Position numbers and translations under genes: made by a program. From the NCBI GenBank assembly GCA_028710885.1, contig JAQTTG010000001.1, forward strand, positions 248,001 to 312,000: a DNA stretch of 64,000 bases. The letters run 5' to 3'. Below the pieces are notes generated by a model. The model was not told the origin of the DNA. It did not search any database and saw only the letters and a program-made list of their open reading frames with translations. Shown one piece after another: positions 10,909 through 42,277 of this stretch (position 1 is the stretch's first letter; each line of letters begins with the position of its first letter). This DNA is from Sulfuricurvum sp. (GTDB lineage Bacteria > Campylobacterota > Campylobacteria > Campylobacterales > Sulfurimonadaceae).

Positions 10909-10922
10909 CTAATTCTATACCG

Positions 10923-10980
10923 TTCACCCTGAGCCTGTCGAAGGGTGAATTGTTCATGGTTCGACACGCTCACCACGAAC
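10923..10980. repeat. Paired palindromic extragenic repeat
   Basis: Two adjacent hairpin units in opposite orientation. The first has arms TTCACCCT (10923-10930) and AGGGTGAA (10942-10949). The second has arms GTTCATGG (10952-10959) and CCACGAAC (10973-10980) with one mismatch. The unit cores, CTGTCGA and TTCGACA-type, are roughly inverted copies. The sequence closely resembles a dispersed REP-like repeat carrying TTCGACA-GCTCA seen in many bacterial genomes. It marks the 3' edge of the HNH segment. No second copy was noticed in this window. Confidence 0.7.
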
Positions 10981-11013
10981 GTGAACTAAATTATCTGTAA
11001 AAAATTTAATAAA

Positions 11014-40877: not shown

Positions 40878-41615
40878 TTACCTCGCAATCAGTTTATATG
40901 CCGTAATGACAAAAATAATAATGTAAAAAACAACCAAAATCTGCTTGTAATGGTTAACTTTAATTCTATGCAACAGCCAAATTCCAAAAAAAATCCCTAT
41001 TAAAGAGCTGAATGCCATAATCATTCCAGCGTGGAGATTGACAAGCCCAAGCCATAGTAACGTTGAAAAACCAGAAATCGATGTAAACATAACAAAAAAG
41101 AGCCCAACAGCAGAAGCTTTTTTGAGAGGAAACCCCATAAAACTTACCAATATTGGTGTCATTAGAATCGAGCCTCCAACACCTAACATTCCCGAAAAGA
41201 CCCCTATAGCTCCACCTATAGCCCCATATAAAGGACGGTTAATAACTTCTGCACGCGTCGGTACTGGGTTTGAAAAAGCTAAACGTCCCAAAGTAAATGC
41301 CACGATACTTAAAAAAAGCCACTCAAGTATCGTAGCTGCAAGCAATTTAACTAAAAAGCCGCCGATTATCGCTCCAAATATTCCGCCATATCCAAAATAT
41401 TTAATATCATTTACAACATACGTCTGGTTTTTATGATGAATCCATGCCGCCATTAAAGAACCTGCTACCATTTGCATTATGGATATACCGATCGCTTCTT
41501 TGATTCCAAAACCTAGATAAAGCAATATAGGAACACTCACAGTGCCGCCACCGATTCCAAAAAAACCTGAAAGGGCCCCGACTCCAACCCCTAAAAGTGC
41601 TAATTCAATTGTCAT
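40878..41615 (-). CDS. TauE/SafE-family sulfite exporter-like permease
   Basis: Integral membrane protein (245 aa from ATG 41615) with about eight spans in two repeats. Each repeat carries the conserved Gly-rich motif, [19 protein letters not shown] in the first and [19 protein letters not shown] in the second. The family exports or imports small sulfur-containing or organic anions such as sulfite or sulfoacetate. In a sulfur-oxidising host, sulfite export would make sense, but that is inference. The reading frame stays open to an ATG at 41663 inside a structured region without a ribosome site. I prefer 41615. It is 5 bp upstream of uvrA. Confidence 0.82.
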
Positions 41616-41639
41616 TTCATCACTTTTCTGCCTCACATA

Positions 41640-41772
41640 GAGACAAGCGTTTCTAGGAAACATCGCAGAGCGAGCGCTTCCCTTGTTTTATGCCTTAACG
41701 GCAAGTATAACCAATGGTGCTTAAGCCCCGATGGTATTCAAAATAATTTTTGTATCGCGCGATTATACTTGC
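41640..41772 (-). ncRNA. Candidate structured RNA or leader upstream of the TauE-like gene
   Basis: A minus-strand TATAAT (41762-41767) would start a transcript near 41755 running into the TauE-like gene. The region is unusually rich in self-complementarity: a long-range inverted repeat GCAAGTATAA/TTATACTTGC (41701-41710 and 41763-41772), a GCTTAAGC palindrome, a GCC-GGC hairpin and a GTTTC-GAAAC hairpin just before the gene. I cannot match it to a named riboswitch, to 6S RNA or to SRP RNA. Confidence 0.35.
41762..41767 (-). promoter_or_regulatory. -10 box for the TauE-uvrA run
   Basis: TATAAT on the minus strand inside the right arm of the inverted repeat at 41763-41772, about 147 nt before the preferred TauE ATG. 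No -35 box is evident. Confidence 0.4.
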
Positions 41773-41854: not shown

Positions 41855-42277
41855 ATGTTGCCCATTATTGTTCAAGCAGCCGAGAATTTTTGTCTCCATC
41901 AACTCTCATTTGTATGTCAATCTATGGAAAACATTAATCAAAAGAGAACACTTCTTGCTTATATCGATATTGAAACTGACGAAGGGGTATTTCATCGTGC
42001 TTATGTAGGTTGTGATTATTCATTGGTCCAAGTAATTGCTGAAATATTCTTAGGCGAAAACACGAACGACGAGCAAACATTAATCGATATGCTTTTAGAA
42101 ATAACCAATATGATCGTTGGCAGTGCAAAAGTTTTAGCTGCTGAAGCATATGAAAAAACCATGCTCATTGCTACACCATTTTTTGTTTTAGACAATTCAG
42201 TTCACACAACTTTCGATAGCGTACACCATTTAGGAATAGAAAACGGTGCCATGATGCTTGCACTAAAAAGGCTTTAA
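41855..42277 (+). CDS. CheX-like chemotaxis phosphatase domain protein
   Basis: A 140-residue cytoplasmic protein of the CheC/CheX/FliY phosphatase-like fold. The helix EITNMIVGSAKVLAAE matches the ExxN phosphatase motif of CheX, in which Glu and Asn dephosphorylate CheY-P. It lies 2 bp upstream of fliN, so it probably acts at the flagellar switch or on CheY-type regulators. The first 40 residues, with the helix QAAENFCLHQLSF, suit the family. The phosphatase role is inferred from the fold and context, and the protein could be scaffolding only. Confidence 0.65.
   Translation: MLPIIVQAAENFCLHQLSFVCQSMENINQKRTLLAYIDIETDEGVFHRAYVGCDYSLVQVIAEIFLGENTNDEQTLIDMLLEITNMIVGSAKVLAAEAYEKTMLIATPFFVLDNSVHTTFDSVHHLGIENGAMMLALKRL

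Follow-up and report, generated by a model that had tools for sequence, protein, structure and literature searches.

What is the structured DNA that lies between tauE and a cheX-like gene in this Sulfuricurvum genome, and how did it come to be there? The window, that is the whole stretch of 64,000 nucleotides that was analysed, carries tauE, a gene of the sulfite exporter family that is followed by uvrA, at 40878–41615 on the minus strand (Pfam PF01925) and the cheX-like gene at 41855–42277 on the plus strand (Pfam PF13690). An earlier note on this DNA had described the spacer between them as 239 bp without a protein gene, holding a structured element. This was built on a 10-bp perfect inverted repeat that spans 72 bp and contains further palindromes, with a -10 box in one arm. 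A riboswitch-like leader, a non-coding RNA and the relic of a miniature mobile element were all offered as readings. The features themselves are real. The spacer runs for 239 bp from the tauE start at 41615 (minus) to the cheX start at 41855 (plus). A longer tauE reading frame, with its ATG at 41663, begins within inserted DNA, and the start conserved among relatives, where the alignment of their tauE begins, is at 41615. The arms of the inverted repeat are at 41701–41710 and 41763–41772, an inner palindrome lies at 41710–41735, and the right arm contains the -10-like TATAAT (minus strand, 41767–41762).

Is this structure a property of the locus? A DNA search over 60 genomes matched 23 of them, counting the window's own, and 11 fetched loci besides the window carry both genes; having been picked by sequence similarity, these loci do not sample the 41 genomes of the genus at random. 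The spacer is 126–130 bp in nine of these congeners and 223 and 229 bp in the other two, against 239 bp in the window. About 112 bp of the window's spacer (41627–41738) is missing from all 11 syntenic spacers. The same alignment identified a block of 13 invariant columns, CGCGCGATTATAC (41756–41768), which all 12 spacers share without change. Read on the minus strand, this block is TATAAT and then CGCGCG, and most simply it holds the -10 element of the tauE promoter (41767–41762). The insert would sit between this promoter and the start codon, leaving the conserved block untouched. From the position of the -10, the tauE-uvrA transcript has probably gained a hairpin-rich 5' leader of about 140 nt, compared with roughly 20–25 nt in relatives. 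Next after the -10 is a palindrome, TCGCGCGA (41755–41762), the CGCGCG of which is invariant in the 12 spacers; an operator is one possible role for it, a discriminator rich in G+C another. A simple promoter and terminator scan found two promoter-like sites, both on the plus strand, against 1.8 expected, and one terminator-like site; the tauE -10 was not flagged. A tRNA and tmRNA search of the window found none. The two longer congeners (L005 and L006) have a different palindrome closer to cheX. It belongs to a further dispersed palindrome family (GGCAGGGACAAATGTCCCTACAACCCCCTAAAGCTACCCG...), which is also present at another locus in four genomes (L205, L207, L209, L212).

By its sequence, the extra DNA of about 112 bp is composed of two nested dispersed repeats, a three-hairpin host element of about 72 bp with a core of about 36–40 bp inside it. 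The composite, at 41627–41738 on the plus strand, is read as a degenerate copy of the host element enlarged by the core, from the pieces recognised by our host element model R1 and from alignment with a filled copy elsewhere. Host hairpin 1 (TCTGCC...GACAAGC; 41627–41648, plus) was placed by alignment with intact copies in the same genome. The core follows on the minus strand at 41649–41690, ends approximate, and was recognised by the conserved positions and pairs of the core pattern, with a conserved 32-nt centre at 41657–41688. The hairpin 2 segment, GCCTTAACGGCAAG (41692–41705, plus), is an exact match to its pattern, which is found at five other places in the same genome with at most one mismatch. 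Hairpin 3 (41710–41735, plus) is the inner palindrome and was placed by model alignment; the GTAG of most copies is degenerate here. The model recognises the window copy in pieces only (41679–41738, 18.7 bits, E 0.013; 41627–41678, 10.7 bits, E 0.91). The main link is the match of 41636–41705 to a filled copy at another locus, which is 83% over 70 bases (E 3.3e-14). Pieces of the insert of 34–80 bases match loci that have neither tauE nor cheX (L009, L010, L013, L016–L020). The window copy is worn. Its core has a G-G at core pair 7-11 and a TCT loop, the complementarity of the core flanks is low (score 8, against a mean of 9.8 for mismatched pairs), and as RNA it folds only modestly better than its shuffles (z -0.92 on the plus strand; z -2.47 on the minus strand, with 2 of 200 shuffles as good).

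The 72-bp inverted repeat does not hold as a unit. Of 3000 shuffles of the spacer, 56 contained an inverted repeat of 10 bp whose arms were at most 60 bp apart; across the window there are 6 repeats of this kind, and 20 shuffles of it gave a mean of 6.2 and a maximum of 12. Because this is the chance rate across the window, the repeat by itself proves nothing. Its left arm (41701–41710) is the end of host hairpin 2 with the linker, and its right arm (41763–41772) is in the native tauE promoter and is mostly supplied by the invariant block. The left arm is therefore in extra DNA absent from the congeners and the right arm in the promoter, which makes the inverted repeat a coincidence of the junction; it was rejected as a unit. 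Could the remainder also be chance palindromes in an AT-rich spacer? The inverted repeat alone would allow it, occurring as it does at the window's chance rate, but the 83% match over 70 bases and the family-wide recurrence of both repeats leave this explanation with almost no credibility. The inserted sequence, unlike the inverted repeat, recurs at other loci far beyond chance.

A riboswitch or another cis-acting leader RNA controlling tauE-uvrA is very improbable too. The location between promoter and start codon is what such an RNA would have, and the minus strand does fold somewhat better than shuffles, yet none of the 11 fetched congeners has the insert in this spacer, and the sequence of the insert recurs at unrelated loci. 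The Rfam covariance-model search proposed in the earlier note gave, for the whole window, no match at gathering score; relaxing the limit to E ≤ 10 near the spacer brought up none of relevance. A low-threshold search of 16 further loci gave nothing convincing, the matches being weak and unrelated; one, to YenS, covers a host copy at 24.2 bits where the cut-off is 80. The riboswitch-like leader is accordingly not supported, the element not being conserved before tauE, and a locus-specific non-coding RNA gene finds no support. The extra DNA, made up of nested dispersed repeats that the 11 syntenic congeners lack in this spacer, is what the third reading, a relic of a miniature mobile element, would lead one to expect.

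How widespread is the host element? In the copies of the window's own genome the unit reads TCTGCCYC-loop-GRGGCA, then AGCTTTAGTGCC-NTAGC-GGCWAGC, and then GTAG with a variable hairpin ending near GGCGTTY. The model was built from 17 copies, and a search of the genus at E ≤ 0.01 gave 567 matches summed over 40 of 41 Sulfuricurvum genomes, with 0–45 per genome and 9 in the window's own. In a draw of 150 Campylobacterota genomes the element is present in 15, from 7 of 39 genera; the other 135 have none at E ≤ 0.001. Outside the window's family, four genomes of family f20 (G055, G161, G175, G196) and one of family f4 (G195) have 9–32 host copies each. This patchy distribution suggests transfer or loss. 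A plasmid and phage search with one host copy gave no match. Among viral contigs the core was found in none and the host motif in one stretch; this IMG/VR contig (L198) has a host element copy at about 1295–1370, and is a possible vehicle between genomes.

The structure of the host element is conserved between its copies. Across 57 aligned copies (56 distinct), some of which built the model so that the alignment leans towards structure, 98.2% of cells are paired, and both partners of 16 of the 21 pairs change together in at least one place. Double-change cells number 145, against 29.3 ± 4.2 in shuffled alignments. For one well-scoring copy (L150), folding on both strands is far better than in its shuffles (z -4.3 to -4.8). 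In 45 of the 56 distinct copies there is a GTAG whose last base is the first base of hairpin 3. By crude ORF calls, 35 of the 57 copies lie between co-directional genes (22 antisense and 13 sense), 13 lie over a predicted ORF, 5 are convergent, 2 are divergent and 2 are one-sided. At paired positions on the element's own strand, G-T exceeds A-C by 63 to 8, or by 24 to 5 when one G-T-rich pair is left out. The ratio is 27:3 in antisense copies (8:3 when the pair is dropped; the 23 sequences include L162:320–396, classed as ORF-overlapping) and 16:3 in sense copies (9:2 without it), with the caution that these counts are small and that the RNA rules of the model bias towards G-T.

The core is found at 37 places in 18 of 41 Sulfuricurvum genomes with up to three mismatches, while its reversed control gives 0. 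The copy at 41657–41688 is the single one found in the window's own genome. A genome collection yielded 35 stretches, of which 34 are titled Campylobacterales (Sulfuricurvum, Sulfurimonas, Sulfurimonadaceae, Helicobacteraceae or Campylobacterales) and one is titled 'bacterium' alone. From loci, 59 distinct copies with at most four substitutions were gathered, and the consensus on the core's own strand is about CA-AAACAAGSGWASCGCTCSC-NNN-GSGATGTTTC-YTYGA. Core pair 17-23 is G-C in 42 of the 59 and C-G in 15, and core pair 7-11 is G-C in 44 and C-G in 11, these being counts of copies and not of independent events. The compensatory changes that the earlier note asked for in relatives are thus present in both repeats at the level of the family, between dispersed copies and not between orthologous leaders. 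Loop 1 of the core is GNA in 57 of 59 copies and loop 2 in 40 of 59. In three longer variants (L134, L135, L145) the stem is extended on both sides. GNA and GNNA loops on at least two G-C pairs are described in PMC4686876 as unusually stable DNA mini-hairpins.

The flanks of the core are of 19 types among 58 copies, and the left flank is more complementary to the right than expected under permutation, with a mean score of 11.9 where permuted flanks have 9.9; 1 in 2000 permutations reached that value. Half-core searches located the left half at 38 places, some in contexts other than REP, and the right half in REP context at 33 places; four right-half places without a left-half match (G016:C4:1151834, G014:C43:12639, G015:C2:234858, G063:C87:5784) were left out. 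Among the loci viewed from these searches, as opposed to whole genomes, there was no long autonomous parent with core ends.

Has the core been inserted into these sites, or has it been lost from others? Next to a ferredoxin-like gene, so classed by eye from its four-cysteine motif, there is a locus at which three genomes (G012, G002, G016) have the host element with the core, whereas three others (G024, G011, G035) and the window's own genome have the host element without it. The core-less locus is 251 bp long, and with the core it is 291 bp (G012, G002) or 279 bp (G016). The host element is absent from seven further loci viewed (L105, L106, L108–L112), a comparison that leaves out L107, where the contig ends. 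Presence or absence at one site alone cannot tell insertion from loss. When the joined flanks of 44 core copies were compared with 228 loci at up to three mismatches, 15 had matches. Nine of these are variants of one REP-like palindrome (of the forms CCCTTCGACA^AGCTCAGGGCGAAC and GGTTCGACA^AGCTCACCACGAAC), two are GAAACGCCA^AGCAGTTGGCG (L077), one is a hairpin-3-like palindrome (L038) and one is another palindrome family (L067, whose flanks match the GGCAGGGACAAATGTCCCTACAACCCCCTAAAGCTACCCG family). The remaining two were discounted, one because its matches are themselves filled copies, with one reversed-control match (L040), and the other as a single weak match (L082). For the 14 other than L040 the reversed control is 0. 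In genome G029 the empty REP-like palindrome is found at 50 places (at most one mismatch), against 9 places for the core in all contexts. For a core in REP context no clean empty orthologous site was found, the relatives having another palindrome family or no repeat (L214, L215). A separate observation concerns the window at 10921–10981, where there is a core-less inverted pair of REP-like palindromes (CGTTCACCCTGAGCCTGTCGAAGGG ... GGTTCGACACGCTCACCACGAACG) of the family that often hosts the core elsewhere.

An account in which the core was never inserted, but is an ancestral part of composite palindromes and has been lost from most of them, appeals to a familiar property of such DNA, as nested palindromes are easily deleted. 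The common junction of core-bearing host copies also suggests that some may have spread as a composite. However, the same core with the same ends is found in 19 flank types, and the joined flanks match core-less palindromes of different families, so that loss is distinctly unlikely as the general explanation. Very probably the structured region before tauE is not a dedicated regulatory RNA. In this lineage a copy of the dispersed, REP-like host element with its three hairpins would have come to rest downstream of the tauE promoter and ahead of the start codon. That copy is degenerate, and between hairpins 1 and 2 it holds the smaller core. Both elements would be non-autonomous, recognised as folded single strands and moved by some enzyme, and for its entry into palindromes the core would favour a CA^A step. 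The G-T excess is on the same strand in both gene orientations, and this, together with the core's GNA loops, suggests a folded single strand with a fixed polarity, which is more likely to be DNA than host mRNA. Quite possibly, although we propose it tentatively, the core is a repeat that parasitises repeats. It would be a single-stranded DNA element of about 36–40 bp with two GNA-loop mini-hairpins, entering palindromes of several unrelated dispersed families near CA^A in Sulfuricurvum and close relatives, its own hairpin extending that of the host, and moved by some enzyme acting on folded single strands.

Do host copies instead persist for what they do in transcripts, as sites of processing or stability or as a small RNA, and not as mobile DNA? 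The preference for G-T over A-C on one strand and the 35 of 57 copies between co-directional genes would suit this, and the G-T pairing of GTAG repeats is taken as a hint of RNA function in PMC3733652. Nevertheless, we think it rather unlikely, as copies occur in both gene orientations, the excess stays on the same strand of the element in both, and the G-T count is biased by the RNA rules of the model. Less doubtful, and still short of likely, is the possibility that a RAYT (Y1) transposase moves the host element, which would then be a GTAG-tagged REP of the ordinary sort. The foot of hairpin 3 bears GTAG in 45 of 56 distinct copies, and Y1_Tnp matches are present in 19 of 41 Sulfuricurvum genomes, but neither repeat is near any of 11 Y1 loci (lost or missed transposases being possible), and three genomes rich in host copies (G012, G024 and G035, with 44, 36 and 36) have no Y1 match. 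The core is found in genomes both with and without a Y1 match, such as G015, with four places and no match. No link to RAYT as the mobiliser was seen at the 11 Y1 loci read after a genus-wide search. In the window's own genome, one locus (L091; G000:C13:46500-51000, at 951–1029 and 1858–2391) has a gene for a 177-aa Y1-type transposase with a 26-bp inverted repeat about 0.8 kb away, which is perhaps its own REP. Kinship with attC and with IS110 was also considered and provisionally set aside.

Free-living Campylobacterota have two dispersed repeat families with strong structural covariation. The host element, with up to 45 copies per genome and mostly between co-directional genes in our sample, may have a part in forming leaders and the stretches between cistrons. 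Comparison of filled sites with empty ones can reveal the target choice of so small a core, so that the spread of transposase-less palindromes becomes a testable question, and the best-populated genomes, without a detectable Y1 transposase, invite a search for another mobiliser. In the open-access literature, by the titles and abstract openings of the papers listed, no description of either family was found for Sulfuricurvum, Sulfurimonas or Epsilonproteobacteria. The string TTCGACAAGCTCA had no match there, and other short repeat strings gave unrelated titles among those listed. A table in PMC12306157 names Sulfurimonas gotlandica, and the data of that paper might include these families.

Which known systems do these repeats resemble? 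GTAG repeats are reported in Proteobacteria 'alpha to epsilon' in PMC3733652, section 5 of which gives GTAG next to the stem as the hallmark of GTAG-tagged REPs; the main text names no Sulfuricurvum, Sulfurimonas, Campylobacter or Helicobacter. The host family may be among the epsilon-proteobacterial repeats of that report. As described there, GTAG-tagged REPs and BIMEs share several traits with the host element: they are dispersed, short and palindromic, their stems change in a compensatory way, and GTAG stands at the stem's foot. The host element differs in having two further conserved hairpins before its GTAG hairpin, and it reaches 45 copies per genome. GTAG lies beside the stem in most host copies and is degenerate in the window copy. 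The absence of the host element from the 11 Y1 loci lowers the RAYT claim only, since REPs need not all adjoin one. As for dispersal outside genes, there are 0–45 copies per genome in 41 genomes, and crude ORF calls place 13 of 57 copies over a predicted ORF. REPINs, for which PMC3116915 proposes a single-stranded intermediate by analogy with IS608, are likewise miniature, transposase-less and hairpin-forming, and inverted pairs of REP-like palindromes also occur in this genus. REPINs as described there are paired REPs, two inverted REPs replicating as a unit, while the host unit is three different hairpins and the core enters inside such palindromes.

The very small mobile repeats of cyanobacteria are reportedly the subject of Elhai et al. 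2008. The core is likewise a tiny dispersed repeat thought to be mobile, short and with both filled and empty sites. Compared by description only, the cyanobacterial repeats are about 20 bp and tandemly repeated (PMC2884548), whereas the core is a folded unit of about 36–40 bp within other palindromes. With the IS200/IS605 family (IS608) the likeness would lie in the proposed recognition of hairpins in single-stranded DNA, an analogy drawn by inference, and no transposase gene bounded by core or host ends was found. Small dispersed palindromes are an old kind of element, and the host element seems to add to them a member that is new or has been described little. What is unusual is that one tiny core would have entered different palindromes time after time, and a core that recurs in this way looks like a new variant.
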